Of a stretch of 64,000 nt of DNA, positions 196 to 56,202 are shown piece after piece. The stretch lies in assembly GCA_019801415.1 (NCBI GenBank), contig JAHVJD010000002.1, positions 186,001 to 250,000 of the forward strand. Direction: 5' to 3'. Made by a program: the position numbers and the translations under genes. Source of the stretch: Nocardioides marinus (lineage in GTDB: Bacteria > Pseudomonadota > Alphaproteobacteria > Rhodobacterales > Rhodobacteraceae). Positions within the stretch are counted from its first letter, which is position 1. Every line of letters starts with the position of its first letter. The notes under the pieces are model-generated. The model was given only the letters and a program-made list of their open reading frames with translations, did no database searches and had not been told where the DNA came from.

Positions 196-270
196 GGGGC
201 TCTCCTAAAGTCTGTTTGCAGCGCTTTTATGGGTTTGGTCGGGACTGGCAAGCGGGTTTTGACCATCAGG

Positions 271-3193: not shown

Positions 3194-3735
3194 GGTGATT
3201 CCCTGTTTTTTACCATTTGGACAAGATGCCGCAGGATAGCGGCACGCAGCCGCAAAGGTGAACCCCTTTTGACGTAAGATCAGGCCGCACGCATCCCGTG
3301 CCCCTCGCGCTGCCCTTCGGCAAGGTGCCGCCTCGCCTGCAACAGGCCCCGTCGCACCCGCGACCTACGAGGTTTCGTATAATCAATCAGGTTCTTTAGC
3401 AAAAATGCAGGTTGTGTCATCGGATCAAAACCCTTCGCACGCGCCGTTCAGGACATGCGCCTAGCAAGGGCGACAGCAAGCGGCGGCTGGCCAAGGCATT
3501 GCAAGCAAAGTCGGCTACGTAGCCACAAGGCGCCCCAAGGGGGCACCGAATCCATTCACCACATGCGCTAGGCAGAGAGTTGGAGACCGCGGTCATTCTC
3601 CCCCTGCCCGCTCGATTTGGCGCGCGACAACGCGCTGGTCGGTGCAGTCCCGCAGTGCAATGCGACAGTTTGGGCTAGGTTTCCGCCCAGAAAATGGTTT
3701 AACACTAAACAAACTGAATTTCGAAGGAGCGCGAG
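3194..3735. other. intergenic region between cdd and maeB, no gene seen
   Basis: These 542 bases separate the divergent cdd operon and maeB and must hold both promoters. A TATAAT hexamer occurs at about 3378-3383 on the plus strand but has no good -35 partner. A GGAG ribosome site lies just before the maeB ATG. Short open frames here lack protein-like composition. No tRNA, riboswitch or clear operator was recognised. Confidence 0.5.
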
Positions 3736-6009: not shown

Positions 6010-6030
6010 AACCAGGAAGACCGACGCGGT

Positions 6031-6059
6031 CGCCCTGCCCATGGCACCATGGCAGGGCG
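6031..6059. terminator. inverted repeat between convergent maeB and Hint-domain gene
   Basis: CGCCCTGCC pairs with GGCAGGGCG through a further ATGG/CCAT stem, with one bulged base. It lies 21 bases after the maeB stop and just beyond the stop of the convergent gene. There is no strong T-run, so it may be a weak bidirectional terminator or an mRNA 3' end protector. Confidence 0.5.
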
Positions 6060-6069
6060 AAAGCACCTC

Positions 6070-7041
6070 TTAACAAAGATAAAGCTGGGCAACGCCGTAC
6101 GCGGCATAGCCGGGCATTTCGGGCACGGCCAGTTGCATCGGCGGCGCATCCCACCCCAACAGGCCGCGCAGTTCATCGATCAGGTCGCGATGCTCGGGAT
6201 TGGCCGGATCGGCCTCGGCCAGAAGGCTTTCGGCAGCCATGCCATTCGCCACCAAAATGACGTGGCGCGCGCACAGGATGTGCCAGTACTCGACCTCTGC
6301 CCACTCCCGCTCGAGGCAGATTGTACTCCCGTTCAGCAATTTCCTCGCCGGAGCCAGCGCCGCATCCTCGCCGCACAGCATCGCCACGGGCAGGCCATCG
6401 ACGTAAATCCTGTGCTGCTGCGAAACCCAGGTATCGCGCTCTGGCCGCCCTTCCCCGAGTGCTCCGGCGGCGATGCGCACCGGGCGCCACTTGTCAAACC
6501 GTGATCCGGCGGGCAAGGGCAACCGCTTTGCGCCTGCCCACACCACCTCATGCGCCTCGCCAAACCAATCCAAAACCGTATCGCCCGCGCGCAGGTTTTC
6601 AACCGGCACGTCGCCCGTCACGGTGCGAATAGCCGTACCCGACGCAAAGCAAACCGGGGTAAAGACGGTGCTGCTCACCGGTTTGATATCAACGACCAGC
6701 GCGACCGCTCCCAGGAGATTGGGTTCGCCGTCGGGGAAATGGAAATAGATGGAGCCGTTCGCTTCGAAGACGATTACCGACTTGGACGCCCCCAAAGGCA
6801 CGGTAGCCCCTGCCAAATCCACGCCGGGCGTGGCGGTCCCGCTACCCAGATAGTTGATCGGATGACCGTTGAAGGTCGACAAGCCGTCATCTTGATCGGA
6901 CAGAACACCATCATCATCTGACAGTGTCCCGGTTTCCCTCGGCCCAAAGTCATTGAGCACAAGCGTCTGCTTTGAGGACAGAAGCTCCGTCGTCACCACA
7001 GAGCCATGATAGGGCGAAACGCTGATCTCGCGACTGTACAT
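6070..7041 (-). CDS. Hint-domain (Hedgehog/intein-type) protein
   Basis: This 323-residue protein has a C-terminal Hint module of the class common in Roseobacter proteins. CFASGTAIRTVTGDVPVENL is the typical Cys-containing block A. It is followed by GDTVLDW, WVSQQHRIYVDG and a conserved MAAESLLAEADP tail region. The N-terminal ~130 residues are Gly/Asp-rich and may be a secreted or adhesive part. No classical signal peptide is visible. The ATG at 7041 is preferred over an upstream TTG because GAGG precedes it at good spacing. Hint proteins of this kind often accompany RTX proteins and are presumed to self-cleave, but the substrate is unknown. Confidence 0.85.
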   Translation of the reverse strand: MYSREISVSPYHGSVVTTELLSSKQTLVLNDFGPRETGTLSDDDGVLSDQDDGLSTFNGHPINYLGSGTATPGVDLAGATVPLGASKSVIVFEANGSIYFHFPDGEPNLLGAVALVVDIKPVSSTVFTPVCFASGTAIRTVTGDVPVENLRAGDTVLDWFGEAHEVVWAGAKRLPLPAGSRFDKWRPVRIAAGALGEGRPERDTWVSQQHRIYVDGLPVAMLCGEDAALAPARKLLNGSTICLEREWAEVEYWHILCARHVILVANGMAAESLLAEADPANPEHRDLIDELRGLLGWDAPPMQLAVPEMPGYAAYGVAQLYLC

Positions 7042-7410
7042 CACACACCTCATCGTTATCAAAACAACTCTAGGGTGAGATAAATTGGATTAACGGTCCT
7101 TTTAAACGAAGTTAAATCTTCATCAATTCAAGGAATCGAAAAACAGCCATACGCATATCGCCTCCGATCCGGACGCCCCTGCCCCGGCAGTTTGCAAATT
7201 TTGCCAAACTTTTCAGTCAGCCCGCCCCTGCCGAACAGTTTGCAAATAAAATGACTAATCCGGCAGGCGATCTTTGTAAAAACTGTAAATGTTGCGGGTG
7301 TGCAGGATCAGGAACGGTAAATTGCTTGACGAACTTCATGCCCCGTTAGCGTAAAACTTGCCCTTTGGTCGCCAAGTCGCCTACGCAGGAAGCGAGGAGG
7401 AGGAAAAGAC
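7042..7410. other. divergent intergenic region between Hint gene and prpE
   Basis: These 369 bases hold no gene that I can support. The right part carries repeated TTTGCAAA-type octamers, described separately, and a strong GAGGAGGAGG ribosome site at about 7394-7403 before prpE. A TTGACG hexamer near 7325 could be a -35 element for prpE, but no convincing -10 follows. Confidence 0.5.
7191..7289. promoter_or_regulatory. cluster of TTTGCAAA-like palindromic half-sites upstream of prpE
   Basis: Exact TTTGCAAA palindromes lie at 7191-7198 and 7239-7246. The first is followed directly by a diverged TTGCCAAA, and TTTGTAAA with CTGTAAA is at 7273-7289. ScfR/PccR-type short-chain acyl-CoA regulators of alphaproteobacteria are reported to bind paired TTTGCAAA sites. 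That family and the downstream propionyl-CoA synthetase gene make this a plausible propionate-responsive operator. No such regulator gene is in the window. Confidence 0.5.
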
Positions 7411-9300
7411 ATGGGATATCAGGATATCTATTCTGCTTGGCAAAAGGATCCGGAGGGATTCTGGATGCAGGCCGCCGAGGCAATCAGCTGGGTGGAGCCA
7501 CCGAAGAAAGCGCTGTTCGACCGGGGCGACGGGCTGCACGAATGGTTTGCCGACGCCCGGGTAAACACCTGCTACAACGCCGTCGACCGCCATGTCGAAC
7601 AAGGTCGCGGCGAACAGACTGCCATCATCTACGACAGCCCGCTGACCCAGACCAAACGTCAGATTTCCTTTGTCGAATTGCGCAATCGTGTGGCCAGCCT
7701 GGCCGGTGCCCTGCGCGCAAAAGGCGTGGGGAAAGGCGACCGGGTCATTATCTACATGCCGATGATACCGGAAGCGCTGGAGGCAATGCTCGCCTGTGCC
7801 CGAATTGGTGCAGTGCATTCGGTGGTGTTTGGCGGTTTTGCCTCAAACGAACTCGCCGTGCGGATTGACGACGCCCGCCCCAAGGCCATCATTGCCGCCT
7901 CCTGCGGCATCGAACCGGGCCGTATCGTGCACTATAAGCCCCTGCTGGACGGCGCGATCGAACAGGCCACCCACAAACCGGAATTCTGCGTCATCTTTCA
8001 GCGCGAACAAGAGGTCGCAGAGCTTGTCCCCGGTCGTGATGTCAACTGGCACGGGTTTCAATTCGGCGTCGAACCCGCCGAATGCGTGCCTGTCGAGGGC
8101 AATCATCCCGCCTATATCCTGTACACCTCGGGCACCACTGGCCAGCCCAAGGGGGTGATCCGGCACACTGCGGGTCAGCTCGTGGCGCTGAACTGGACGA
8201 TGAAAAACATCTACAACGTCGACCCGGGTGATGTCTTCTGGGCGGCCTCGGATGTCGGCTGGGTCGTGGGGCACTCCTATATCTGCTACGGCCCGCTGAT
8301 CCACGGGAACACCACGGTGGTCTTTGAGGGCAAACCTGTCGGCACGCCGGACGCCGGCACGTTCTGGCGCGTCATCGCAGAACACAAGGTCAAGAGCTTC
8401 TTCACCGCGCCCACGGCGTTCCGGGCCGTAAAGCGCGAGGATTCCAAGGGCGAAGAAGTCGGGAAATACGACCTCAGCTCTCTGAAGCAGGTGTATCTTG
8501 CCGGCGAACGTGCAGATCCCGACACCATCACCTGGGCGCAGCAGCAGTTGAAAGTGCCGGTGGTCGATCATTGGTGGCAAACGGAAACAGGTTGGGCCAT
8601 CGCGGCCAATCCCTTGGGTATCGAGGAACTGCCGACCAAGCTCGGCTCCCCGGCGGTCCCGATGCCCGGGTACGAGGTCGACATTCTGGACGAGAGCGGC
8701 AATCCGGTTGCACCGGGCGAGCTGGGCGCCATTGCCGTAAAGCTCCCCTTGCCGCCCGGCACGCTGCCGACGCTGTGGAATGCTGAAGACCGCTACCGCA
8801 AGAGTTACCTGACCACCTTCCCGGGCTATTACGAGACCGGGGATGCCGGGATGAAGGACGAGGACGGCTATCTCTACATCATGGCGCGCACCGACGATGT
8901 CATCAACGTTGCAGGTCACCGGCTTTCGACCGGTGCCATGGAAGAAGTCCTCGCCAACCACCCGGATGTGGCGGAATGCGCGGTGATCGGTGTGTCGGAC
9001 AGCCTGAAAGGGCAGATGCCGGTCGGCCTTCTATGTCTGAATGCCGGAGCCGAACGGAACCACGCGGAAATCGTCAGCGAAGTGATCAAGCTGGTACGCG
9101 ATAAAATCGGCCCGGTTGCCGCCTTCAAGACAGCGGTTGTGGTCAACCGCCTGCCAAAGACACGGTCCGGCAAGATCCTGCGCGGCACGATGGTGAACAT
9201 CGCGGATGGCACCTCGTGGAAAATGCCCGCGACCATCGATGATCCATCGGTTCTGGACGAAATCACCGCAGCTTTGCAAACAATCGGTTACGCCCGCTAG
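7411..9300 (+). CDS. prpE: propionyl-CoA synthetase
   Basis: This 629-residue AMP-forming acyl-CoA synthetase activates propionate to propionyl-CoA. AMP-binding signature YTSGTTGQPKGV is near residue 240. Other family motifs are WWQTETGW, YETGDAG, DDVINVAGHRLSTG and the C-terminal KTRSGKILRGTM with the lysine needed for adenylation and usually controlled by acetylation. The start MGYQDIYSAWQKDPEGFW is typical of PrpE and differs from acetyl-CoA synthetase. A strong GAGGAGGAGG site precedes the ATG. It stands alone, between a Hint gene and an amidase. Confidence 0.93.
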   Translation: MGYQDIYSAWQKDPEGFWMQAAEAISWVEPPKKALFDRGDGLHEWFADARVNTCYNAVDRHVEQGRGEQTAIIYDSPLTQTKRQISFVELRNRVASLAGALRAKGVGKGDRVIIYMPMIPEALEAMLACARIGAVHSVVFGGFASNELAVRIDDARPKAIIAASCGIEPGRIVHYKPLLDGAIEQATHKPEFCVIFQREQEVAELVPGRDVNWHGFQFGVEPAECVPVEGNHPAYILYTSGTTGQPKGVIRHTAGQLVALNWTMKNIYNVDPGDVFWAASDVGWVVGHSYICYGPLIHGNTTVVFEGKPVGTPDAGTFWRVIAEHKVKSFFTAPTAFRAVKREDSKGEEVGKYDLSSLKQVYLAGERADPDTITWAQQQLKVPVVDHWWQTETGWAIAANPLGIEELPTKLGSPAVPMPGYEVDILDESGNPVAPGELGAIAVKLPLPPGTLPTLWNAEDRYRKSYLTTFPGYYETGDAGMKDEDGYLYIMARTDDVINVAGHRLSTGAMEEVLANHPDVAECAVIGVSDSLKGQMPVGLLCLNAGAERNHAEIVSEVIKLVRDKIGPVAAFKTAVVVNRLPKTRSGKILRGTMVNIADGTSWKMPATIDDPSVLDEITAALQTIGYAR

Positions 9301-9353
9301 ATCGCGACCGGTCAGCTCGGCCAAGAACCGAATTTCAATTTGCAACATGAGCT

Positions 9354-9375
9354 GGCACCGCCTTCGGGCGGTGCC
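9354..9375 (+). terminator. GC-rich hairpin after prpE
   Basis: GGCACCGCC and GGCGGTGCC form a perfect 9-bp stem closed by a stable TTCG tetraloop, 53 bases after the prpE stop. The following GCTATTTCG is only weakly T-rich. It is a likely intrinsic terminator that separates prpE from the amidase. Confidence 0.7.
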
Positions 9376-9475
9376 GCTATTTCGCGCAGGAAAAAAGCTC
9401 GAATTACGCGAGACACTGCGGATTGACTTGCAACTTGTCGTCGCACGCCTAGGCTGCACGGCAGGAGGCAACTAC

Positions 9476-10915
9476 ATGACCGAACAAGACATATGGCAGC
9501 TGAGCGCGACAGAACTCACGCGCCTTACCCGGAGCGGAGATCTCAGCGCTGAAGCCGCGGTGGAGGCCGCACTGGGGCGCATGGCAGCCGTGAACCCCGA
9601 CCTGAATGCCGTGGTCGAAGATCTCAGCACGCAAGCGCGAAGCCGAGCCCACGCGCTCGACAAGACACGCGAAAGTGGCGTCGAACCCGGGCCACTGCAC
9701 GGCGTCCCTGTCACCATAAAGATCAATGTCGATCAGGCCGGACACGCCACCTCCAACGGTGTCGTCGCGCTCAAAGACCTTATCGCGCCCGCCAATGCCC
9801 CGGTCGTGGAAAACTTGCAAAAAGCTGGCGCGGTGGTGATCGGACGCACCAACACGCCGGAGTTTTCCTTTCGCGCGGATACCGACAACCCGCTTCATGG
9901 GCGCACCCACAATCCCTGGGGGCGGCATGTCTCTGCCGGTGGTTCTTCCGGAGGTGCCGGAGCCGCGGTGATGGCCGGTATCGGCGCGCTGGCACACGGC
10001 AATGACATCGGTGGATCACTGCGCTTCCCCGCGGCCGCAAACGGTGCCGTCACGGTGAAACCTGGACTTGGGCGGGTGCCTGCCTGGAACCCCAGCCAGC
10101 GCGCCGAACGCGGATTGCTGGCACAGCTGATGTCGGTGCAGGGATTGATCACTCGGACGGCAGAAGATTTGCACCTGGCAATGCCCAGCCTGATCGCGCC
10201 GGACCCACGCGATCCTTTCCACGTGCCGATGCCCTGGCGCGGCGCGGACAACCAGCAGCCTCTGAAGGTCGCCTTCACGCGCAACACCCACGGCTATGAC
10301 CTGCATCCCGAGGTGGAGGCGGCGCTTCTGACAGCCCGCGATGCGCTGCGCGATGCCGGTTACATTGTCGAAGAGGTCGAGCCGCCCAATGTGTTCGACG
10401 CAGGTCGCAGCGGGTACCGCGCCCTTATGGGCGAAATCCATGCTCTGATGAAGGCCGACGTCGATGCAGCCGGCTCCCAGACCGTGCGGGATATCTTCGC
10501 GGTCTATTTCCAGGAGTTCCCCCCTTTCACCGGCGACGAATTGTTGAAAGTGATGGCGCAGCGAACGCATTTCGCCCGCCAATGGTCCCTGTTCATGCAG
10601 GACTACCCGCTGGTGCTGTCGCCCTTCCTGCCACAGCCGTTCTTCCGTCCAGACCGCGATACCGAAGGTGCGGCCGGTGTGCAGGAGGTGCTCGGTTGCG
10701 CTGTCTACTCCTACGCGATGAACTTCCTCGGCCTGCCCTCGGCATCCGTTCCCGCGCGGCTGGCGGAGCTGCCGGGCGGACCGCAGCCGATCAATGTGCA
10801 GATCGCGGCGCAGCGGTGGCGCGAGGATCTGGCGGTCGATGCCTGCAAGGTGATCGAGGACCGCGTGGGCCGCATGTGCCTGCCACTGTGGAAGCGGATG
10901 CAGCAAGAGCAGTGA
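9476..10915 (+). CDS. amidase (amidase-signature family)
   Basis: This 479-residue amidase-signature enzyme hydrolyses an amide bond; the natural substrate cannot be read from sequence. The Ser-cisSer-Lys triad is visible: Lys82 in VTIKINVD, cis-Ser in AGGSSGGAGAA at about 157-158 and the nucleophile Ser181 in GNDIGGSLRFPA. The ATG at 9476 is chosen because AGGAGG lies at correct spacing; an in-frame extension upstream crosses the prpE terminator and is not protein-like. GatA is unlikely, because gatB and gatC are absent and the C-terminal half differs from GatA. Confidence 0.88.
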   Translation: MTEQDIWQLSATELTRLTRSGDLSAEAAVEAALGRMAAVNPDLNAVVEDLSTQARSRAHALDKTRESGVEPGPLHGVPVTIKINVDQAGHATSNGVVALKDLIAPANAPVVENLQKAGAVVIGRTNTPEFSFRADTDNPLHGRTHNPWGRHVSAGGSSGGAGAAVMAGIGALAHGNDIGGSLRFPAAANGAVTVKPGLGRVPAWNPSQRAERGLLAQLMSVQGLITRTAEDLHLAMPSLIAPDPRDPFHVPMPWRGADNQQPLKVAFTRNTHGYDLHPEVEAALLTARDALRDAGYIVEEVEPPNVFDAGRSGYRALMGEIHALMKADVDAAGSQTVRDIFAVYFQEFPPFTGDELLKVMAQRTHFARQWSLFMQDYPLVLSPFLPQPFFRPDRDTEGAAGVQEVLGCAVYSYAMNFLGLPSASVPARLAELPGGPQPINVQIAAQRWREDLAVDACKVIEDRVGRMCLPLWKRMQQEQ

Positions 10916-11249
10916 GCCTGACAGGTTGAACGGTCGGGTTTATCACCCGGGGAACGGAGCACTCCGTCCCCGGGGCAGTTCCGAACCACATTCACCGTCT
11001 ACCCTGACGCAATGCTGCGCGGCTTCAGTTCCGCCCGCGATGACAGCAAGCGGCACTTCACCGGTTACGCGGCACGTGCCAGCAAACAAAGGTAACCCAG
11101 ACACCACTTACGCCACTGGTGCCGCTTGCGGCACCTTGGGATCAAGCGCGGGCCTGAACCAACGCTTGGAGTTCAATAATCGCACGAAGGTGTTACCAAA
11201 GTGTTCACCCGTTCCACCCATGGGCGAATGATACGCACATGGGTACAGC
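10916..11249. other. intergenic region between convergent amidase and nadK
   Basis: These 334 bases contain a GC-rich inverted repeat at 10946-10974 (CCCGGGG plus ACGGAG against CTCCGT plus CCCCGGG), probably a terminator for the amidase although it lacks a T-run. The open frame over 10926-11231 has no ribosome site or recognisable composition and is not called. Nothing else is seen. Confidence 0.5.
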
Positions 11250-12011
11250 TCAGGTGAATTGTTCTGAGATCAGCCGCTCTTCCAGCCCATGCCCGGGATC
11301 GAATAGGATCTTGTGGCGAATGTTCAGTTCCGTCCGGATCTCGACCCAGTCGATATCGGCCACGGAAATGGAATCCGCATCTGCCATGACCGGGCGCTTT
11401 TCCGGCTCCAGCACGTCAAAGCGCACCATGGCATTGCTGGGCAGCAACGCCCCGCGCCAACGACGCGGCCGAAAGGCGGCGATCGCGGTCAACGCCAATA
11501 CATCGGCGCCAATCGGCAGAATCGGGCCATGTGCCGAGTAGTTGTAGGCGGTGGAGCCGGCAGGCGTCGCCACAAGCGCCCCATCGCAAACCAGCTCCGG
11601 CATGCGAATCCGCCCGTCGACCGAAACCTGCAACCGCGCGGCCTGCGGTCCCGCCCGCAACAAGGAGACCTCGTTGATCGCCAGTTCTTTGTGGACGCCC
11701 CCCTGCCGATCCATTGCCGTCATGGACAACGGGTTGATGATCTCCTGCACCGCGTCCTGAAGGCGCTCAGTCAGCCCTTCGGCGCGGTATTCATTCATCA
11801 GGAAACCCACGGTCCCACAGTTCATCCCGTAGACCGGCGCGGGGTGATCGACCATGGAGTGCAATGTGCGCAGCATGAACCCATCGCCGCCGAGCGCCAC
11901 GATGACATCCGCCTGCTCTGGTGACACATGGCCGTATCGGGTCTCAAGCTCGGCCAGAGCCTGCTGTGCGACGTCGGCCTTGCTGGCAAGAAATGCGATT
12001 CTCAAAGACAT
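11250..12011 (-). CDS. nadK: NAD kinase
   Basis: This 253-residue protein makes NADP from NAD and ATP (or polyphosphate). The diagnostic GGDGFML motif is near residue 45. NEV(S) follows in the middle, and the glycine-rich [22 protein letters not shown] block is the NAD kinase signature. The ATG at 12011 is used because the protein then starts [13 protein letters not shown] with a GGAAA site before it; the upstream in-frame extension is not family-like. It is divergent from glyA with 169 bases between the starts. Confidence 0.95.
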
Positions 12012-12180
12012 AAAATCTGTTTCCGGTGTTAGCCATGTGGTTCCGAAACAAGCACAGCTTTCCACCGAAGGCCATAGTTGCCGTTCTGTCGCACGCAAAT
12101 GTCGCTTTACAGGCTTTCTGAGCAGCAAAGTTTCCGATAGGAAATCCTCAAATCTGACCCTCTACTCCAACGGAGCCACC

Positions 12181-13476
12181 ATGACTGAAGCGACCCGTGA
12201 CCCCGGATTTTTCACCCAATCGCTGGCCGAGCGCGACCCTGAGCTGCACGGCGCAATCACAGCCGAACTGGGCCGCCAGCGCGACGAGATCGAACTAATC
12301 GCCTCCGAGAACATCGTCTCTGCCGCGGTGATGGAAGCGCAGGGCTCCGTGCTGACCAACAAGTATGCCGAAGGCTACCCGGGCCGTCGCTACTATGGCG
12401 GCTGCCAGTATGTGGACGTGGCCGAAAACCTCGCCATCGACCGCGCCAAGCAGCTGTTCGGCTGCGAGTTCGCCAACGTGCAGCCGAACTCCGGCAGCCA
12501 GGCAAACCAGGGCGTGTTCCAGGCGCTGATCCAGCCCGGCGACACCATCCTGGGCATGGACCTCGCCTCCGGTGGTCACCTGACCCACGGCGCCGCGCCG
12601 AACCAGTCCGGCAAATGGTTCAACGCCGTGCATTACGGTGTGCGCGAAAGCGATTGCCTGATCGACTACGACCAGATCCAGGCCCTCGCGACGGAGCACC
12701 AGCCCAAGCTGATCATCGCCGGCGGCTCCGCCATCCCGCGCCAGATCGACTTTGCCCGCTTCCGCGAAATCGCCGACAGCGTGGGCGCCTACTTCATGGT
12801 CGACATGGCCCACATCGCCGGCCTGATCGCCGCAGGTGAGCACCCCTCGCCCTTCCCGCACGCGCATGTGGCAACCACCACCACCCACAAGACCCTGCGC
12901 GGCCCGCGCGGCGGCATGATCCTGACCAACGACGCGACGATCGCCAAGAAGGTGAACTCGGCGATCTTCCCCGGCATTCAGGGCGGCCCGTTGATGCACG
13001 TGATCGCAGGCAAGGCAGCTGCCTTCGGCGAGGCGCTGAAGCCCGAGTTCAAAGCCTACCAGAAGCAAGTCCGCGCCAACGCGGCAGCGCTGGCGGATCA
13101 GCTGATCAAGGGCGGTCTGGACATTGTCACCGGCGGCACTGACACCCATGTGATGCTGGTTGACCTGCGCCCCAAAGGCGTGACCGGCAACATCGCCGAC
13201 AAGGCCCTGGGCCGTGCCCACATCACCACCAACAAGAACGGCATCCCGTTCGATCCGGAAAAGCCCACCGTGACCTCCGGTCTGCGCCTCGGTACGCCTG
13301 CAGGCACCACCCGTGGCTTCGGCGAGGCCGAGTTCCGCCAGATCGCCGACCTGATCATCGAGGTGATCGACGGGCTGGCCAGTAACGGTGAAGAAGGCAA
13401 TGCGGACGTCGAAGCCTCCGTGCGCGCCAAGGTAGCGGAGCTCTGCAGCCGCTTCCCGCTGTACCCGAACCTGTAA
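12181..13476 (+). CDS. glyA: serine hydroxymethyltransferase
   Basis: This 431-residue PLP enzyme interconverts serine and glycine with tetrahydrofolate, the main one-carbon source. Family blocks are present in order: [28 protein letters not shown], the [13 protein letters not shown] region and the PLP lysine block [14 protein letters not shown]. The ATG at 12181 follows a purine-poor leader but matches the normal GlyA N-terminus. Codon use is strongly biased to C-ending codons, as expected for a highly expressed gene. A classical terminator follows. Confidence 0.97.
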
Positions 13477-13498
13477 GCCCAACAGGATTGAGGAAAAG

Positions 13499-13535
13499 AA
13501 CCGCCGCGCCCCCTGGTCGCGGCGGTTTCATTTTT
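13499..13535 (+). terminator. intrinsic terminator of glyA
   Basis: AACCGCCGCG and CGCGGCGGTT form a perfect 10-bp stem around a 9-base loop, and TCATTTTT follows. It is 23 bases after the glyA stop. Confidence 0.88.
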
Positions 13536-13759
13536 GGCACCGGATGAGATCTGCCTTGCCCCGCAGCCCCTGGCATAATGGCCAGACATGAGGCTTGGGC
13601 GCGACCGCCTCGGCAGGAGCCAAGCCCCCGTCTCGCTCCCGTTGCGCGACCCACAGCAGCCACATGGTTTTGCAACGCACTTGCGCTCAACGAATAGTAG
13701 ACGACCGCTGAAACAATCTTTGCCCTATGCTTCACACGTCGGGGACAACACAGAGCGGA

Positions 13760-14125
13760 TCACACCAACCCGCGCCAGCGCAGCACCACGACCAGCAGCG
13801 CAATCACCGTCAACAGCGAGAAACCGATGCTGCCCAGGATGCTCAGCCACAGCCCCCGGCGGCGATCCGCAAGATCGATCTGCTCGAGGTGCGCGCGCAC
13901 CTCGCGGGCAGCGCCGCGCAGCGGCTTTTCATCCAGTGTCAACCGCAGCCTGGGATGTTCGATCAACGGCATGGCGGCCGCCAGTTTGCGACCCTGGCGG
14001 TAGACCCGGCGCGGCAGGCGGCGGCGCGCCCGCTTCAGCGCCATTTCGAGGTCGCCCGAGGCATGCTCACGTTCCTTCAGAAGCACGCGGATCTCTTCGA
14101 TATCCTGTTCCAGGCTGGCAGCCAT
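13760..14125 (-). CDS. small protein with C-terminal membrane anchor, unknown function
   Basis: This 121-residue protein is not recognised as a named family. Residues 1-85 are highly charged and mostly helical in character (EEIRVLLKEREHASGD, KRARRRLPRRV). One hydrophobic segment at about 92-115 (LWLSILGSIGFSLLTVIALLVVVL) is followed by a short basic tail, so the protein is probably tail-anchored in the inner membrane with its charged part in the cytoplasm. AGGAGCAGGAA directly before the ATG is a strong ribosome site and supports a real gene. It is divergent from the hydrolase gene. Confidence 0.7.
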   Translation of the reverse strand: MAASLEQDIEEIRVLLKEREHASGDLEMALKRARRRLPRRVYRQGRKLAAAMPLIEHPRLRLTLDEKPLRGAAREVRAHLEQIDLADRRRGLWLSILGSIGFSLLTVIALLVVVLRWRGLV

Positions 14126-14225
14126 TTCCTGCTCCTTTGGTCGGCTTGTCGCCCCACCCTAGCCTGCCCTTGTCGGGCTCTCAATGGGGCTGGCGCACGG
14201 CGCGTCAGGCGGCTATCAAGCGCCT

Positions 14226-14984
14226 ATGCTGAACACGATCACACATGGCTCCGCCACCGAGAAACCGCCACTCCTGATTGCCCACGGGCTTTACGGCTCT
14301 GCGCGCAACTGGGGCGTCATCGCGAAACGGCTTTCAGATGAACGTCAGGTGGTAGCGGTCGATATGCGCAACCACGGCGACAGCCCCCGCATGGACAGCC
14401 ACAGCTACCCGGAAATGGCTGACGACCTGGCCGAGGTGATCGATGCCCATGGCGGGCAGATGGATGTGATCGGCCATTCGATGGGCGGGAAGGCTGCCAT
14501 GATGCTGGCACTCAAGCACCCCCAGGCGGTGCGGCGCCTGTTGGTCGCGGATATCGCGCCCGTCGCTTATGGGCACACGCAGATTCACTACATCGAGGCG
14601 ATGCGCTCGGTCGATCTGGACCGGGTTCAACGCCGCCCCGAGGCAGCGGCACAACTGGCCGAAGCGGGTGTGGAACCAGCACTGCAAAGCTTCTTCACCC
14701 AATCTCTGGACCTGCCCAACCGGCGCTGGAAGCTGAACCTTGACGTGCTGGCCGACCAGATGCCCAATATCATGTCTTTCCCTGAGACCAATGCAAGCTG
14801 GTCCGGTCCGGCCCTGTTCCTGTCCGGGGCCAATTCGGATTACGTGCTGGCGGAACACCGGCCGGTCATCCGCGCCCGGTTCCCCGCCGCGCGGTTCGCC
14901 AAGCTGCCCGAGGCAGGCCATTGGCTGCACGCCGAAAAACCACGCGAATTCGAAGCGGCCGCACGGGTCTTCTTCAACGCCTGA
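14226..14984 (+). CDS. alpha/beta hydrolase (YbfF-like esterase)
   Basis: This 252-residue alpha/beta hydrolase has LLIAHGLYGSARNW (oxyanion-hole region), DMRNHGDSP, the nucleophile elbow GHSMGGKAAM and a C-terminal EAGHWLHAEKP with the catalytic His. This order and spacing resemble the YbfF esterase group. The substrate is not known. The ATG at 14226 fits the family start; an in-frame GTG/ATG extension upstream would add an unlike segment. It is the last chromosomal gene before the left prophage end. Confidence 0.85.
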   Translation: MLNTITHGSATEKPPLLIAHGLYGSARNWGVIAKRLSDERQVVAVDMRNHGDSPRMDSHSYPEMADDLAEVIDAHGGQMDVIGHSMGGKAAMMLALKHPQAVRRLLVADIAPVAYGHTQIHYIEAMRSVDLDRVQRRPEAAAQLAEAGVEPALQSFFTQSLDLPNRRWKLNLDVLADQMPNIMSFPETNASWSGPALFLSGANSDYVLAEHRPVIRARFPAARFAKLPEAGHWLHAEKPREFEAAARVFFNA

Positions 14985-15187
14985 GCGTGCAAGGCATCCA
15001 GCCGTCGCGCAACAGTGAAGGCTCCAAGTCCGCTCCCCCAGATACAGCCAGACGCCGAGCCGACGCGACGGTTGCTTTCGGCTGAGCGAAATGCAGTGCG
15101 CAAACCCGCGCGTCCGCCATTGGCGTGACAAAGCACGAAGGCATGACAAGGCACGAAACGCACAAGCGCCCCTCGCGCGAAAGAAAT

Positions 15188-15259
15188 TCCCTTTAAAATC
15201 AGTGGTGCGGACGGCGGGACTCGAACCCGCACGGCCATAAGGCCAGGAGATTTTAAGTT
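15188..15259. repeat. attL: 72-bp direct repeat of attR
   Basis: Identical to 56203-56274 from TTCCCTTTAAAATCAGTGG through AGGAGATTTTAAGT. The sequence diverges right after the anticodon-loop region on one side and 16 bases beyond the tRNA 3' end on the other. It marks the left prophage boundary. Confidence 0.95.
15204..15259 (-). pseudogene. 3' fragment of tRNA-Leu(UAA) left by integration
   Basis: This is the CCA end, acceptor 3' strand, T-arm, variable arm and anticodon 3' half of the tRNA-Leu found intact at 56219-56304. The D-arm and 5' acceptor strand are missing here; the sequence changes after the anticodon loop. It is the displaced bacterial copy. Confidence 0.93.
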
Positions 15260-15504
15260 ATGATTGAACCACATAAAATCAGGAGCTTAGCCAAATTCGC
15301 TCCCACGGACAAAACGTAAACATACAGTGAAAGTGGGCGCGCCCTTTTCTCCCGCACGGGTCCACGTTATTCAAGTGAGATCTTGACGATTCAAGCGCCA
15401 CTCTTGCGGAAATTTCGCCGACCCAATTGCGCCAAGCTATCGACACTGTTGACACGCGCTGATCACGAAACACGCGTTCGCCCCAACGACGAGGAGCTAA
15501 GTTT

Positions 15505-15681
15505 TTGAAAGCAGAGCGACTAGACAATGGCCTCATCAGGCTCGCGGGCCCCATTTGGAAAGACGAATTTCCGGAAACACGGCTTGAGGCATGGATTGCA
15601 TGGTATGAAAGAATGCATGAAGACCATGGCCATCACACCTACAGGGCTGCTGCCGAAGCATTGAAAGCCCTGGTATATTAG
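15505..15681 (+). CDS. small hypothetical protein with TTG start
   Basis: This 58-residue frame begins at TTG, 8 bases after a perfect GAGGAG ribosome site at 15491-15496. The product is charged and protein-like (RLAGPIWKDEFPETRLEAW, YERMHEDHGHHTYRAAAEAL) and ends LVY. No family is recognised. It is the first possible gene inside attL. An antisense open frame (15520-15795, minus) covers most of it but has a poor composition for a protein. The call rests on the ribosome site and amino acid character alone. Confidence 0.45.
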   Translation: MKAERLDNGLIRLAGPIWKDEFPETRLEAWIAWYERMHEDHGHHTYRAAAEALKALVY

Positions 15682-16325: not shown

Positions 16326-19300
16326 GTGAGCAATAAAGTTGATCGACGGATCCTTCAGGATGAGCCATCCGAAAAAGACCTTTTCAATGGAGGTGGGCAC
16401 GAACGAACTGCTCATTCTCTGTCCAAAGCAATTGTAAGGTTTGATAGCGGTGATAGCGCAATTGGGCTCGAGGGCTCATGGGGAAGCGGGAAGTCCAGTG
16501 TCGTCGAAATGGCGAAGAGAAAACTCTCCGAGAAGAATGGGAAGGGAAAGAAGACCTACAACTTCTTTACTTTCGACATATGGAAATCTCAGGGTTCAGA
16601 TTTCCGCCGGTCGTTCTTGGAGCATTTTTTGAACTGGGCACAAATGACTTTTCCAAAGAAACGTCATGAATTGGCTGCTATTGAAGCTCAGATTCAAGGA
16701 AAGACACGAGAGATACAAACAAACAACCAGCCGATACTAGACTGGTATGGAATTACAGTTCTCGTTTTTCTTCCCTTCCTCCCGCTTTATTACTTTTGGG
16801 CGAAGACTGTCTTCGATGAAGCTGCCAAGGCAGGGAGTGCCGGAGACTTTCTTTGCTCGACACCCTTTCTGCTGTTGCTTGCATTTGTCATTGCAACCCT
16901 TGCACTCGCGGGCTGCAAGTTCAGGTCTGCTCGAGCCAAGGATCCGAAAACAGATTTTAAAGCTGTCATCTCTAGATTGCTCCTTATAAGATCGCGACAG
17001 CATCAAGACCACAAAGTTGTTCAGAAGGTTCGGGAAATTGACCCAAATGATTACGAGTTTCATTCTACGTTGCGAGAAATCCTTGGTGTTGTTCAGTCGG
17101 AACACGAAAGAGTCGTTGTCGTCCTAGACAACATCGACAGATTGCCTGGAAAAGAAATAAGGGATTATTGGGCACTAGTAAGATCAATTTTTGCGCGAGC
17201 GCATGGGGAAATAATACAAGGCGCACATACTGAGATCACAGCAATTGTTCCCTATGATCGAAAGTTGATTGAGGCAAACGTAACAACTGATGAAGACGAA
17301 GAAACAGGTCGCAACGACATAAGCTGCCTTGCCTCAAGAGAACTGTTTTCAAAAACATTCTCAGAGATTCTTTCGGTCTCTCCGCCTGTTCTCTCCAACG
17401 CACGCGAATTCTTCGCTGACAGGTTGGAAGAAGCGCTGCCCAAGCAGGTTTCCGCAGATGACAGGTTTCGCACCTACCGTATTTTCTGCGAACTACTCAA
17501 AACCCAAGGTGGAACAACAACGCCGCGAAACATCGTTTCTTTCGTTAACAACTTGAGCAGCTTGTATGAGTTGCACAACGGAAAGTTTCGTCTTCCAACG
17601 GTTGCTGCTTACATTGCCCACCAGGACCGCATCAGAGACAAGCCATCAGTTTTGAACGAGAAAACCGGTCTGGACCCCAGAATTTCTGCTCTATCAGGCG
17701 ATAGTAAACTTACAAAAAATCTAGCAGCTATGGTCTTCAATGTTGAAGAAGACCTTGCGTTTCAGATCTTGCTCGATGATGAAATTGCTGAAGCCATTCT
17801 TAGCCCAAGCCCAGACCGCATTCTTGCTCTATCTTCAGCTCCTGGCTTCGACGACCGCGTCGACGATGTTGTCCAGGCGAATGTCGATGAATGGCGCAGC
17901 ACGGGAGACCTTGGCACCGCAATCAGAAACATTTCCGAGTTGCATGAGAACTATGAAGGTGACGCAAAGAAACACCTAGCGAGCACAGTGCTCCGGGCGT
18001 TCTCAAAAGTGGAAACTCTTCCAATCAAGGGTGAAGGTTACGTTGAACATCTGCCGATTTTCTCGCTAGCTACTGAAAGTCAGCTACCGGAAACTGTGGA
18101 TTACTTCGTGAATGCGGTGCTGGCAGGTGTGCACCAGCAAGAGAAGTACACATTTCAAGATGGTAAGGCCTTTTCCTCTTTTCTGGTCGCAGTTGCCGAG
18201 GCTCTGGAGAAGCATGGCGGAGCAGAGGCCCTGAACATTGCCTTGGGTGAGCAAACACTGCCAACCGCGCCGGAGTATATGTTTGGCCTAGCAGCGACTA
18301 TTGCAACCACGGGGTTCGACTTAAGCTCCTTTTCCTCGGCAGAGATCGCGCTCGATGAGGATCTTAAGTATTTAGAAGAACAGTTCGTCAAATACCCTGG
18401 GCTGGCAATTCCAGCCCTTGAACAGTTCACTTCAAACGACCTCTTGCCCGACCAAGAGCTCGTGAGCATCGCGAATGCCGCTCTGTCCGCTCTCAAAACA
18501 GGTGAAGTTCCACCGGGGAACGCCAGTGCGTTGCTAGAAATAGCCGCCATAACTTGGCAGTCGGTTGACGAAAGTAAACGAGCAGAAATACTGCTGGCGA
18601 ACGCCACGACTGAAGGGCAGTTCTTTAGAAATATTGGTGACGGCTCAACCGTAGAGAGTCAGACAGCCCAGGCGAATTTGCTGTTTTTGGCTCAGGAGCA
18701 ACTTGGAAAAGGTCTTTCAACCCCAACAAAGTTGAATCCAAATAATACCCGCGCACCTGACCCTTCGGATGGCTTCAGCCGTTTCAAGGATTTGTTAGAT
18801 GGTTCGGGAGAACTCTTAGATAGCCAAGTAGAATTGGTAGCACACAAGGCAGTCGCAGCACGTGGTGCAACCCGCTGGATTGTGTATGGCAAGGCTAATC
18901 GGGAGCATTCGGCAGTCGCACAAATTGTCGTCGAGATGTTTAGCCGTGCGACACCTCCCTACCTCACTCTGCAAGGTTTGACCTCGCATTTCCCTTATCT
19001 GCGCGATCTACTCGAAGAAGATGTTTTGGTCGGCGCACTGGGGAAATATGCTCCTAGGATGGACGTCTCAGAGATTAAAAAGCTAACGCTTGATGATATA
19101 CCCCGCGGCTTTCTATCTCTTTCACATGCTACGGGTGGTCTATGGAACCCCCTGCATGAACACGTCGGTGACCTTTTGAGTTCAGTCGAACAACAGGCTT
19201 GGCCAGATCACATTAGTGAGATGGATCACACGGCATTGGTTCTTCTCGAAAAACTAGATTCCTCGGGCTGCCAACTTGATGCAGGCGTATTCAGAAAGCC

Positions 19301-19811
19301 GTTCGTCCACATTGTAAAACACGTCTTGTCTGGAGAGAGTGAAATTGAGGCTGCCGATGGTGCCTTGGATGCACTGTTGCGCGCTCTAGATAAAAGCTAT
19401 CACGAGGACGTTTGGCGCTCTCTTCGTGAAGGAATCTCCAACGTTTCCGCGACATCTTTGGGTCATGCTATGCAGCTATGTCCCGAGCTGATCTCAAACG
19501 TAGCACAACGTGGAGATCGAATAATGAAGGCCGAGAAGGACAATGTCCTGCGCCATATCCTTGTTCCTGCGCTGGAAGGAAGACAAAGTGACGCTCTTCG
19601 GATTTTCGTTGGTATGGGTTACTCGAAGCTGAAGGACTTCCAGAACGCGGCCCAAGACAGCACCACGGCTATGGTTGAGGGCGCGTGGAAAAGCTTTTCC
19701 AATGCAAACGTGGATAGAAACCTGATGCGCGACCTTAGCGAGGTCTTGTTTGGAAAGCGAAAAGCGAAGTCAATTTTGGACCCCAGCTTTTGGCTTTCAT
19801 TGCCAAAGTAA
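16326..19811 (+). CDS. KAP-type membrane P-loop NTPase, candidate phage-exclusion protein
   Basis: This 1161-residue protein starts at GTG behind GAAGGTGG. The N-terminus has Walker A (GSWGSGKSS, residues 50-58). Two hydrophobic segments at about 140-160 and 176-197 are inserted between Walker A and Walker B (RVVVVLDNID, about 262-271), the arrangement that defines KAP NTPases. The remaining ~700 residues are helical and repeat-like without a known motif. KAP proteins include PifA of the F plasmid, which excludes phage T7. A large KAP gene at the att-proximal cargo position of a prophage therefore suggests superinfection defence, but that is inference. Base use is visibly more AT-rich than the phage core. 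Confidence 0.85.
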   Translation: MSNKVDRRILQDEPSEKDLFNGGGHERTAHSLSKAIVRFDSGDSAIGLEGSWGSGKSSVVEMAKRKLSEKNGKGKKTYNFFTFDIWKSQGSDFRRSFLEHFLNWAQMTFPKKRHELAAIEAQIQGKTREIQTNNQPILDWYGITVLVFLPFLPLYYFWAKTVFDEAAKAGSAGDFLCSTPFLLLLAFVIATLALAGCKFRSARAKDPKTDFKAVISRLLLIRSRQHQDHKVVQKVREIDPNDYEFHSTLREILGVVQSEHERVVVVLDNIDRLPGKEIRDYWALVRSIFARAHGEIIQGAHTEITAIVPYDRKLIEANVTTDEDEETGRNDISCLASRELFSKTFSEILSVSPPVLSNAREFFADRLEEALPKQVSADDRFRTYRIFCELLKTQGGTTTPRNIVSFVNNLSSLYELHNGKFRLPTVAAYIAHQDRIRDKPSVLNEKTGLDPRISALSGDSKLTKNLAAMVFNVEEDLAFQILLDDEIAEAILSPSPDRILALSSAPGFDDRVDDVVQANVDEWRSTGDLGTAIRNISELHENYEGDAKKHLASTVLRAFSKVETLPIKGEGYVEHLPIFSLATESQLPETVDYFVNAVLAGVHQQEKYTFQDGKAFSSFLVAVAEALEKHGGAEALNIALGEQTLPTAPEYMFGLAATIATTGFDLSSFSSAEIALDEDLKYLEEQFVKYPGLAIPALEQFTSNDLLPDQELVSIANAALSALKTGEVPPGNASALLEIAAITWQSVDESKRAEILLANATTEGQFFRNIGDGSTVESQTAQANLLFLAQEQLGKGLSTPTKLNPNNTRAPDPSDGFSRFKDLLDGSGELLDSQVELVAHKAVAARGATRWIVYGKANREHSAVAQIVVEMFSRATPPYLTLQGLTSHFPYLRDLLEEDVLVGALGKYAPRMDVSEIKKLTLDDIPRGFLSLSHATGGLWNPLHEHVGDLLSSVEQQAWPDHISEMDHTALVLLEKLDSSGCQLDAGVFRKPFVHIVKHVLSGESEIEAADGALDALLRALDKSYHEDVWRSLREGISNVSATSLGHAMQLCPELISNVAQRGDRIMKAEKDNVLRHILVPALEGRQSDALRIFVGMGYSKLKDFQNAAQDSTTAMVEGAWKSFSNANVDRNLMRDLSEVLFGKRKAKSILDPSFWLSLPK

Positions 19812-20118
19812 CAGTCACTTTTTTATGACCGTTTATTGTGGGCAGAGAAACGTTTTTGTGCGTGCGGCGAAAGTCGGCTCTCCGGAAACCTCCATGATTA
19901 CAGCGTGCCTGTGCTGCACCTTGCATGAATGTCGCGTTGGGGCTGCCTGCGGGCAGCTGTGACAGCGACGGCAACCGTCCAGGCCGGTGATGTTTCCGTG
20001 GCGCTGCCGCAATGCCGCTTCGAGCCCTTACTTACCACTGCTGCGTCAAAGACCAAAGGCCGCATTTTTAGCGCCTAGCGCCCTCCAAGTCAGATTAGGC
20101 ACCTTTCTTGGAGCTGTA
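19812..20118. other. non-coding stretch after KAP gene
   Basis: These 307 bases lie between the convergent KAP gene and a small minus-strand gene. GC-rich segments alternate with AT-rich ones. A TTTTTTAT run at about 19818 follows the KAP stop but no stem precedes it. No gene or repeat is supported. Confidence 0.4.
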
Positions 20119-20346
20119 TCATTCCACGCCAAGCAGTTTCTTCAATTCGGATTTTGCGCCTGCATGATGGTTGCCGGACAAAAAATCTGTAGAGCTGAAG
20201 GTCTCGCTTCCTTGGTTCTGAGCCAAGCCATTCACGCGCACATGATCCCAAGAATGCGTGACCAAGCCTGACTCTTCATCGAAACTCCACCAGTCCTCAT
20301 ATTGGCCGAGGTGGCCTTTTTCGGTTCGGAAAAATATCTTGTTCAT
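20119..20346 (-). CDS. small hypothetical protein
   Basis: This 75-residue protein begins MNKIFFRTEKGHLGQYEDWW and reads as a soluble, aromatic-rich domain (WSFDEESGLVTHSWDHVRVNG) with a short charged tail. No family is recognised. A GGTG-rich stretch lies before the ATG. It sits between the KAP NTPase and a small membrane protein within the cargo zone, and could be an accessory gene of the neighbouring defence-type genes; there is no direct evidence for that. Confidence 0.6.
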   Translation of the reverse strand: MNKIFFRTEKGHLGQYEDWWSFDEESGLVTHSWDHVRVNGLAQNQGSETFSSTDFLSGNHHAGAKSELKKLLGVE

Positions 20347-20546
20347 GTTTCACCATTTTGAAGGTTAGCGAAAGGCTTCTAGTCATCGTCGCACTCGTCT
20401 TCCTCAAGTTCTCAGAGTTCACGAAATGCATCGGCCAGTCGCATCGGATTAATCTGTCTCCCGGTCGCCATCCATCCAGATTGTGCAAAAACACACCGAA
20501 TATCGTTGGCGAGCCATTATTATATCCTTTCGCAGCTTTCTTGGAA

Positions 20547-20780
20547 TTATTCTGGTAGAAGCATCAACACGCCCTGAAGTAATGCGCTGAAGCCTGCAAA
20601 GGCTGCCGCTATTGCATTTAGCTTCGATGCTTTCTGCATAGGCGCAAATGCGGAACCAATCATGCTTTCCTCAAAATCCTGGATGGGAACACGTGAAGCC
20701 CGAAACCAATAAAAGGCAGCTATCAATGCTGCGACCACTGAGATCCCGGTCAGCGCCTGCTTTAGGTAGATTTGGTTCAT
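20547..20780 (-). CDS. small two-pass membrane protein, unknown function
   Basis: This 77-residue protein has hydrophobic segments at about 8-26 (ALTGISVVAALIAAFYWFRA) and 56-75 (AIAAAFAGFSALLQGVLMLL) joined by a polar loop. AGAGGTG before the ATG is a good ribosome site. It is followed on the same strand by the 75-residue gene and preceded by the Abi_C gene (27 bases), so the three could be one transcript. Small membrane proteins often accompany exclusion or abortive-infection genes, but none is recognised here. Confidence 0.65.
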   Translation of the reverse strand: MNQIYLKQALTGISVVAALIAAFYWFRASRVPIQDFEESMIGSAFAPMQKASKLNAIAAAFAGFSALLQGVLMLLPE

Positions 20781-20806
20781 ATAATCTGCACCTCTTTTGG
20801 AAAGTT

Positions 20807-21691
20807 TTAACTCGTAAGGTCTACGTTGTGTAGTGACCGATCAGGATACTTCCTCTGCCAGGTTTCAAGTAAAAACAGCGCTGTTGTGCTCGCGGTATGG
20901 ACCGCAAACCGCGCAATCCTTACGTCAATGCGCGCAAAGCCTCTTTCTCTGCCGTGGGCATCGCCTGCATGTGTTCGTAGGGCGCCGACACCGCTTATTA
21001 CGCTAGACAGACCTGAAAGTATTTGACGGACGTCATTCGCAATTTGTGGGTCTATGTCGGTTCTACCTGCTGAAAGACCAAGAGGATCTTTCACGGCATT
21101 ATACAGACCTTGAATGTCCTTCTTGGCCGGTAATGGTATATCAAGCTCGACTAAGATGGATCTGCAGACACTTTCCAATGTGCTGCAAGCAGAGGTAACG
21201 GCTCCTTCTGGATCTAGGCTCAAGCTCTCAAGCGCCCGTTCCAAGTCTCTACGAACTGTGTCAAAGTCCACTTCTTCTGCTAGTCCTGCAAGATCAGATA
21301 AAACCGGGGTATCCTTTCCCGCTTGGACCAAACGGACGCGTGTACCTAACGATTGAAGCTCGTAGCCATCAAAGGACAAGGCGCGGTTCAGATACGTAAC
21401 AACCTCTTGATGACGATCTGGATCTTTCATGAAGTCCCTGGGATCAGCAGCACTTTCAACTATCCTCGTCATTACATCTGCTGCTTCACTGCTGGTGTTC
21501 TGTCGATTCAGACAATCAATCAAACTCGGCACACGAGACCCTTCAACCTTGAAGCTAACGTTGTTCCGCCTCATGAACTGCTCAAGCTTGGTTCCGCTAC
21601 GATAGATACCAATGGGTGGGTCCGGGTCCATGCCACCACCACCGCTGATAATTTCTGCGAGTGCATCAATGCTCTGAGGAGATAAAAACAC
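20807..21691 (-). CDS. abortive infection protein with Abi_C domain
   Basis: This 294-residue protein has a C-terminal half (about 160-280) matching the abortive-infection C-terminal (Abi_C) pattern. SACSTLESVCRSIL is followed by a helical stretch and the block GVGALRTHAGDAHGRE, with Arg239 and His246 arranged like a HEPN-type R-x6-H motif. The N-terminal part is not recognised. Abi_C proteins are linked with phage exclusion in lactococci and occur in many defence islands. The start codon is GTG with only a weak ribosome site. It is one of two unrelated exclusion-type genes in this cargo zone. Confidence 0.78.
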   Translation of the reverse strand: MFLSPQSIDALAEIISGGGGMDPDPPIGIYRSGTKLEQFMRRNNVSFKVEGSRVPSLIDCLNRQNTSSEAADVMTRIVESAADPRDFMKDPDRHQEVVTYLNRALSFDGYELQSLGTRVRLVQAGKDTPVLSDLAGLAEEVDFDTVRRDLERALESLSLDPEGAVTSACSTLESVCRSILVELDIPLPAKKDIQGLYNAVKDPLGLSAGRTDIDPQIANDVRQILSGLSSVISGVGALRTHAGDAHGRERGFARIDVRIARFAVHTASTTALFLLETWQRKYPDRSLHNVDLTS

Positions 21692-26749: not shown

Positions 26750-26954
26750 GGGCCTTCTCCTCCAGTTGGCGTGAAAGTTCATCGCGCGCTCGCAGAGCCT
26801 CGATCCGCGCGGCCTCCAATTTCCGGAACGCCTCGATCTGCGCCAGCTCGCGCGCCTGGTAGCTGGCGCGGTAGTCCGCGGCCCCCTGCCGATAGCCGAA
26901 AGCGGCAGCGGTCGCCAAAGCCGCGAGTGCGGAAAGTACAGCCGCCCCTCTCAT
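26679..26954 (-). CDS. Rz-type inner-membrane spanin
   Basis: This 91-residue protein has an N-terminal membrane anchor (GAAVLSALAALATAAAFGYR) followed by a helical coiled-coil stretch rich in Ala, Glu and Arg (EAFRKLEAARIEALRARDEL), the form of an i-spanin. Its ATG overlaps the endolysin stop by ATGA. The C-terminal coding part overlaps the Rz1 gene in another frame. In the family, the periplasmic coiled coil binds Rz1 and spans the periplasm at lysis. Confidence 0.85.
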   Translation of the reverse strand: MRGAAVLSALAALATAAAFGYRQGAADYRASYQARELAQIEAFRKLEAARIEALRARDELSRQLEEKAHADPVAVPRCLGPGRVRRLNALH

Positions 26955-27679
26955 GCTTCCGCATCCAGCGCCCTCAGGCACATCGATCGCTCCGACAGGC
27001 GGCGATTGGTCAGGCCACGGATCACCCGCCCCCCTGCCCGGTTCCAACGCGGCAACTCATTGCAGGCGCCGCGCAGATCGCCTGCGTTGGCCTTGCGCAC
27101 CAGCGTCGAGCGGCAGGCGGCAGCCGCACCGACATTGTAGGTCCAGGATACCAGCGCGATCTTGACCCCCACGGGCACCTTTGCGGTCAGACATCGGTCC
27201 AATGCGGCCTCGTATCTGACGATTTCCCGCGCCAGAATCGCATCGCACTCCGCTTTGCTGTAGCGATCGCCGGACCTGACCCCCTTGGTTTCCCCATAAC
27301 AGACCGTCCAGACACCGACGATGTCGCGGTAGGCCTGCGTGCGCAACCCTTCCCACTGACCGATGAAGGACACCGCCGAGGCAAGCGCGACCGAACCGCC
27401 CGCGATCAGGCCGACGGTCCGCTTGCGCAGGGCACCGCTCTCATCCCGCCGGAATGCCCGCCACAGGCCCGAAGCGGGCTGCACCAGCACCCGGGCAGGA
27501 ATGGCGAGCAGGTTTACCACGGTCGCCGCCAGGGCAAACCACAGCGGATCCAGACCCAGCATGTCGGGCGTGACCAGCGACACGAACACTGGCGCGACCG
27601 AGAGGACCGCCGCCAGCAGCAGAAGACGGACAGACCAAGCGCCTTTCAGCGTGGCCTGCCAGTTATCGATGAATTTCAT
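26951..27679 (-). CDS. holin-like domain fused to GH24 lysozyme endolysin
   Basis: This 242-residue protein has two N-terminal hydrophobic segments at about 18-36 and 44-66, resembling small phage holin-like (DUF7940-type) proteins that start MKFIDNW. A third segment at about 89-107 (VGLIAGGSVALASAVSFIG) resembles a SAR anchor and runs directly into the GH24 catalytic site: Glu110, Asp119 and Thr125 with E-x8-D-x5-T spacing. The protein would cut peptidoglycan after release from the membrane. GGAG precedes the ATG at 27679. The single frame joins what is usually two proteins. A separate holin gene lies upstream. Confidence 0.85.
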   Translation of the reverse strand: MKFIDNWQATLKGAWSVRLLLLAAVLSVAPVFVSLVTPDMLGLDPLWFALAATVVNLLAIPARVLVQPASGLWRAFRRDESGALRKRTVGLIAGGSVALASAVSFIGQWEGLRTQAYRDIVGVWTVCYGETKGVRSGDRYSKAECDAILAREIVRYEAALDRCLTAKVPVGVKIALVSWTYNVGAAAACRSTLVRKANAGDLRGACNELPRWNRAGGRVIRGLTNRRLSERSMCLRALDAEA

Positions 27680-27740
27680 GGGATTTCTCCATGCCAAAAG
27701 AGCCCGCAGGCGGGCCACAAAGGTTGAATTGTCGGGAAAC

Positions 27741-27959
27741 TCAGTCCGGCAGCTGGCCGGTCATCTTCAACCGCAGCTCATAGCGCTGCAGCCGGTAGGT
27801 CGCGATCTTGTGCCAGAGGTTCACGACGAACCCGGCAAACGCCAGGACAAATCCGCCAATGGCAAGCCACTGCGTGAGGGTGAGCGCGCCAAAGCCCGCG
27901 ATCGCCGCGCCGCTGAGGGTGGAGAGGTTGGCCATGCCCTGGATCTTTTGATCAATCAT
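27741..27959 (-). CDS. putative phage holin
   Basis: This 72-residue protein has two closely spaced hydrophobic stretches at about 14-30 and 32-50 (ALTLTQWLAIGGFVLAFAGFVVNLW) and a basic C-terminal tail (HKIATYRLQRYELRLK). Size, topology and place directly before the endolysin match a class II holin that makes the inner-membrane lesion. It is the first gene of the lysis cassette. No sequence motif defines the family, so the call depends on topology and context. Confidence 0.8.
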   Translation of the reverse strand: MIDQKIQGMANLSTLSGAAIAGFGALTLTQWLAIGGFVLAFAGFVVNLWHKIATYRLQRYELRLKMTGQLPD

Positions 27960-56108: not shown

Positions 56109-56202
56109 GTTGGACCAGAACGGGAACGAAAGGAGACTGTGGGAGCAGGTTGTGGGAGTGGCGAAGTTTCGACGATTTCCGCCCTTCGCTAAGAGAGAGA
56201 AT

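Follow-up and report, generated by a model that had tools for sequence, protein, structure and literature searches.

A membrane KAP NTPase and a predicted AbiJ-type HEPN protein, probably separate anti-phage modules, in the cargo of an alphaproteobacterial prophage

At one end of an alphaproteobacterial prophage, the gene of a large KAP NTPase and that of an Abi_C protein lie close together, with two small genes between them. Both families had been taken to be linked with phage defence, for which there is support in the literature on HEPN/AbiJ proteins (PMC3710099) and on the KAP-family protein Tmn (PMC11846954). The locus raises the question whether its genes form one undescribed multi-gene unit or belong to two systems side by side, and the original prediction had offered both possibilities. 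From our analysis of the window, i.e. the whole stretch of 64,000 nucleotides, we consider it fairly likely that two independently acquired, separable anti-phage modules are present, a Tmn-like KAP protein and an AbiJ-type HEPN protein.

Prophage context and composition of the block

The prophage is about 41 kb long and integrated in tRNA-Leu (Table 1). Its att sites form an 80-bp direct repeat with the 3' part of tRNA-Leu, and the two copies are 98% identical, which places the block next to a prophage end as had been proposed. The whole stretch from the lysis genes to position 15258 is accessory DNA. Starting from attL, the gene order is KAP, the 75-aa ORF, the 77-aa ORF, Abi_C, the 209-aa ORF and the RTX-repeat protein. 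Over 77% of its length, the 209-aa ORF is 35.8% identical to a resolvase-domain protein from a plasmid; it is a neighbour outside both modules. The RTX/Ig-like protein is prophage cargo, too, and an RTX-like protein is found in the same slot of prophage L077.

Table 1. Coordinates of the features discussed, in the window and in loci of relatives (positions are those of the sequence named in the first column)
Sequence	Feature	Position	Strand	Remarks
Window	attL repeat	15179-15258		direct repeat; 3' part of tRNA-Leu
Window	KAP NTPase, 1161 aa	16326-19811	+	intact; PF07693
Window	75-aa soluble ORF	20119-20346	-	one relative
Window	77-aa two-pass membrane protein	20547-20780	-	two hydrophobic helices
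Window	Abi_C, predicted AbiJ-type HEPN protein, 294 aa	20807-21691	-	PF14355; PADLOC AbiJ
Window	resolvase-like ORF, 209 aa	21810-22439	-	upstream of Abi_C
Window	RTX-repeat protein, 1134 aa	22771-26175	-	calcium-binding RTX repeats; five Ig-like repeats
Window	lysozyme and holin genes	26951-27959		lysis genes
Window	PD-lambda-5 pair	51375-53683	+	subunits A and B; a further AT-rich islet close to repressor and integrase
Window	integrase ORF	55062-56108		right prophage end; assigned by position and sequence
Window	second att copy	56195-56274		direct repeat; partner of 15179-15258
Window	intact tRNA-Leu	56219-56304	-	prophage end opposite attL
L028	ResIII/DEAD helicase, T5orf172 nuclease, Abi_C operon	7377-12070		conserved in two elements
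L180	ResIII/DEAD helicase, T5orf172 nuclease, Abi_C operon	315-4494		conserved in two elements
L181	consecutive genes for methylase, Abi_C, RT-protease and Type ISP restriction enzyme	228-9392		viral contig; PADLOC RT-Protease_XI
L040	KAP relative, Rhizobium gallicum plasmid	6992-10476		annotated as two overlapping ORFs
L098	type I HsdR and PrrC anticodon nuclease	11303-15617		directly behind lysis genes; endolysin 67% identical
L091	1351-aa ORF in the slot	11431-15486		caspase-like stretch, residues 1116-1276 (E=3e-13)

The description of the block as AT-richer proved correct, with a GC content of 0.49-0.50 compared to 0.65-0.66 in the tape-measure, portal, terminase and capsid genes. GC3 amounts to 0.45-0.57 in the five ORFs from KAP to the 209-aa ORF and to 0.80-0.87 in the same core genes, and these first five genes are therefore foreign to the phage backbone. 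If the block were a single undescribed unit, KAP would sense infection at the membrane, with Abi_C as RNase effector, and both would be coupled by the small membrane protein. Such a unit would agree with the presence of four genes of similarly AT-rich GC3 within 5.4 kb and nothing else between them. However, an unrelated islet of the same prophage has a similar composition. This islet encodes PD-lambda-5 at the other prophage end; subunit A matches over residues 3-479 of 482 (E=3.6e-150) and subunit B with E=1.5e-120, the two ORFs overlap by 4 bases, and the pair is complete. Moreover, KAP on the plus strand is convergent to the three other block genes on the minus strand, so that the group cannot be one operon or share a transcript. 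The opposite orientation of KAP is not mentioned in the original prediction.

The KAP NTPase and its relation to known systems

The KAP ORF matches PF07693 with 69.3 bits (E=4e-19; cut-off 20). It contains a Walker A motif (GSWGSGKS, residues 50-57) and a Walker B motif (VVVLDNID, residues 264-271), and hydropathy peaks locate two transmembrane helices at about residues 137-155 and 176-194, between the two motifs. Walker A, two transmembrane helices and Walker B in this order are the layout of membrane KAP proteins, and the predicted 1161-residue membrane KAP NTPase is thereby confirmed. An AlphaFold2 model based on five sequences predicts an all-alpha solenoid of about 660 residues (about 480-1142) with pLDDT values mostly of 80-94; the NTPase part is poor with five sequences, and the solenoid alone is usable. 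Foldseek related the modeled solenoid to importin/HEAT-type solenoids with low TM-scores, which suggests a general likeness of fold only, and a sequence search of solved structures with KAP found none.

The KAP subfamily is rare and comprises six long relatives and one more distant one. Sequence identities are 84%, 59%, 58% and 56%, and further relatives with 35-39% identity are located on two Rhizobium plasmids. A genome of the same family (G093) carries the same KAP gene. The Rhizobium gallicum relative is annotated as two overlapping ORFs, the gene being split or frameshifted. Neither viral contigs nor phage records yielded any relative, even with the five-sequence alignment. Compared to the 84%-identical nearest relative, the dN/dS of KAP is 0.14.

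Among known systems, Tmn offers the closest description: this NTPase of the KAP family possesses two unusual transmembrane domains and blocks several phages, and its sensing has been tied to a phage DNA-modification gene (PMC11846954). Tmn of E. coli and the protein studied here are both KAP NTPases with two transmembrane helices encoded by a single gene; no neighbour is common to any two of the KAP relatives, which stand alone in different islands. In contrast to Tmn, our protein is alphaproteobacterial and located on a prophage, and the likeness is drawn from Tmn's description. PADLOC reported matches of KAP to PifA, QatA and PDC-S20 and none to Tmn. PifA, which is encoded on the F plasmid and excludes T7, and QatA gave the best PADLOC matches and share the KAP-family P-loop region. 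However, both the PADLOC and the NCBIfam models match around the P-loop alone, with a best-aligned stretch of about residues 9-98 of the 1161 in KAP. Because of this limitation we do not assign KAP to PifA or QatA, and its role in defence rests on architecture and mobile context.

For PifA, the best stretch aligned KAP residues 23-89 with positions 19-83 of the 720 in the model. As to qatABCD, KAP scored 31 bits against a cut-off of 600 for the NCBIfam QatA model, and a Pfam scan of the neighbouring ORFs was without any QueC-like or TatD-like family. By analogy, KAP is best read as a solo, Tmn-like membrane KAP NTPase.

The Abi_C protein as a predicted HEPN ribonuclease

The assignment as Abi_C holds as well: the protein matches PF14355 with 71.2 bits (E=8e-20; cut-off 24) and the PADLOC AbiJ model with E=8e-18. 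It consists of an N-terminal domain (about residues 1-125) and a HEPN domain (about 130-281). The catalytic motif of AbiJ-type HEPN proteins, R-x4-6-H, is intact in the form R-x6-H (R239-THAGDA-H246). Both R239 and H246 are invariant in a nine-row alignment of Abi_C and eight relatives from viral contigs, in which the motif starts with RN in the distant rows, and they are kept in every row of the A2 alignment of Abi_C relatives that reaches the motif. For Abi_C, pN amounts to 0.21 and pS to 0.85, the latter reflecting saturation of the synonymous sites. The N-terminal domain is conserved among close relatives and receives no name from Pfam; AbiJ_NTD3 touches one member of the family only (E=0.054). 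A structure model reached a pLDDT of 55. Its top Foldseek match is the HEPN structure 1o3u, and the best matches also include HEPN 2hsb and the toxin-antitoxin complex 7bxo. All of them have E-values that are not significant alone, and given the low confidence of the model they are suggestive only. A sequence search of solved structures with Abi_C returned just chance-level helical matches.

Within the HEPN proteins, the AbiJ family is marked by varied N-terminal domains, for which a role in sensing infection or in holding back the RNase has been inferred; AbiJ often lies beside restriction-modification genes, and AbiJ solos occur in operons with them (PMC3710099). Abi_C resembles this family (PF14355; PMC3710099) in its C-terminal HEPN domain with R-x6-H, its extra N-terminal domain and the association of its relatives with restriction operons. 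It differs in an N-terminal domain that is not assignable to the Pfam AbiJ_NTD families, in the lack of a restriction partner, in its location on a prophage and in the small membrane protein behind it. The best reading of the sequence is that Abi_C is probably an AbiJ-type HEPN ribonuclease with an N-terminal domain of its own.

Neighbourhoods of the relatives, the cargo slot and its likely role

Do the parts of the block travel together? All of them were compared by tblastn (E 1e-3) with every collected locus. Hits in foreign loci, counted with some places represented by both a short and a long locus, amounted to 10 for KAP, 53 for Abi_C, one for the 77-aa protein and none for the 75-aa protein. 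Not one of these loci contained two of the four parts. The conserved neighbour order to which the original prediction had looked for support is thus lacking: neither Abi_C nor the small genes appear in any of the 10 KAP loci, nor KAP or the small genes in any of the 53 Abi_C loci, a comparison with limited power on the KAP side since the subfamily is rare and the loci of several relatives comprise just 1.5 kb of flank. Genome samples of the order (246) and of the class (385) contained both families together only in the window's own genome, and searches of these genomes, genome contigs, plasmids, phages and viral contigs revealed no other co-occurrence.

Relatives of Abi_C have other partners. 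On a Salipiger plasmid (L037), Abi_C lies behind HsdR of a type I restriction-modification operon. In a genome (L028) and a viral contig (L180) it is the last gene of an operon with a helicase and a nuclease. The helicases of these two elements are 87% and the nucleases 80% identical, and their Abi_C proteins are 68-70% identical to that of the window. PADLOC yielded a fragmentary match on the helicase only and none on the nuclease; this operon is perhaps an undescribed defence unit. On a third element (L181), Abi_C stands between a methylase and an RT-protease (Table 1). With every family of the block recurring in the company of others and no relative holding any two of the four genes, a single unit appears highly improbable. 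Of the two possibilities raised originally, the placement of two systems side by side is retained, while the one-unit version is not supported in view of the convergent KAP gene and the missing co-occurrence.

The two small genes were described correctly, one encoding a soluble protein of 75 aa and the other a protein of 77 aa with two hydrophobic helices. The 75-aa ORF is probably a gene. Its one relative found by blastp (33% identity over 73 aa) is located beside a serine recombinase in another genome, and it has otherwise almost no relatives. The 77-aa protein could be functionally tied to Abi_C. In that case KAP would act alone, and Abi_C and the 77-aa protein would be a two-gene operon in which the latter acts on the HEPN RNase as antitoxin, anchor or sensor. 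The 77-aa gene starts 26 bp behind the Abi_C stop on the same strand, is preceded by an SD-like AGAGGTG, and is under purifying selection (dN/dS 0.21 compared to a 62%-identical relative). This relative on a Leisingera plasmid lies directly behind an HTH_3 gene, possibly as a regulated pair. However, it is the single good relative and has no Abi_C within 5 kb; furthermore, the 77-aa gene is missing from all 53 Abi_C loci, and the close Abi_C relatives (68-70%) do without it. We therefore consider such an operon unlikely. An extended version, in which the small membrane partner controls the HEPN RNase instead of the restriction partner of the close relatives and KAP adds a membrane sensor in the slot, is more doubtful still. 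The 77-aa membrane protein may only share the transcript of Abi_C.

The surroundings of related lysis genes point to the nature of the site. Among the viral contigs, 80 loci have a related endolysin, and 54 of these loci extend at least 2 kb beyond it; neither KAP nor Abi_C lies behind the endolysin in any of these 54. The genes that follow the lysis genes vary from element to element and include HsdR with PrrC in L098, a DNA methylase in L094 and the large ORF with a caspase-like stretch in L091. The block is best read as a variable cargo slot at the lysis/attL end of the prophage. Defence hotspots of prophages have been described before (PMC9122126, PMC9519451). Like those of P2/P4-like elements (PMC9122126), the present site is a fixed slot with changing defence genes, but it is bordered by the lysis genes on one side and the att end on the other, and the prophage resides in tRNA-Leu. 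Unrelated modules adjoin because the slot resembles such a variable hotspot.

Alternatively, KAP and Abi_C could be cargo without an anti-phage role, e.g. in lysogeny maintenance or stress response, or silent passengers. The gene pair has no known phenotype, and no consensus sigma-70 promoter was found ahead of either gene, although this consensus may not fit the organism. On the other hand, the motifs are intact, the genes are under purifying selection, both families are repeatedly met with restriction, RT and PrrC systems, and the position in the slot is typical of prophage defence. Cargo of this kind is quite unlikely in our estimate. Judging from the sequences, both genes probably protect the host against rival phages as two separate modules. 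We infer how each could do so. The long HEAT-like solenoid of KAP would recognise an infection-specific product; ATP binding would then drive the assembly of KAP domains at the inner membrane, and infection would be stopped by membrane disturbance or arrest. The HEPN endoribonuclease of Abi_C would be kept inactive by the N-terminal domain until infection releases it; cleavage of RNA would then abort phage growth.

Both proteins are new representatives of known families rather than a new system. They extend the defence cargo of an alphaproteobacterial prophage by a rare subfamily of full-length membrane KAP NTPases whose HEAT-like solenoid is large, and by a solo protein of predicted AbiJ type. 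If PD-lambda-5 is counted, a single prophage of 41 kb probably bears three anti-phage modules. In conclusion, prophages of this group deserve to be mined at the slot behind their lysis genes, where a related element carries HsdR and PrrC.
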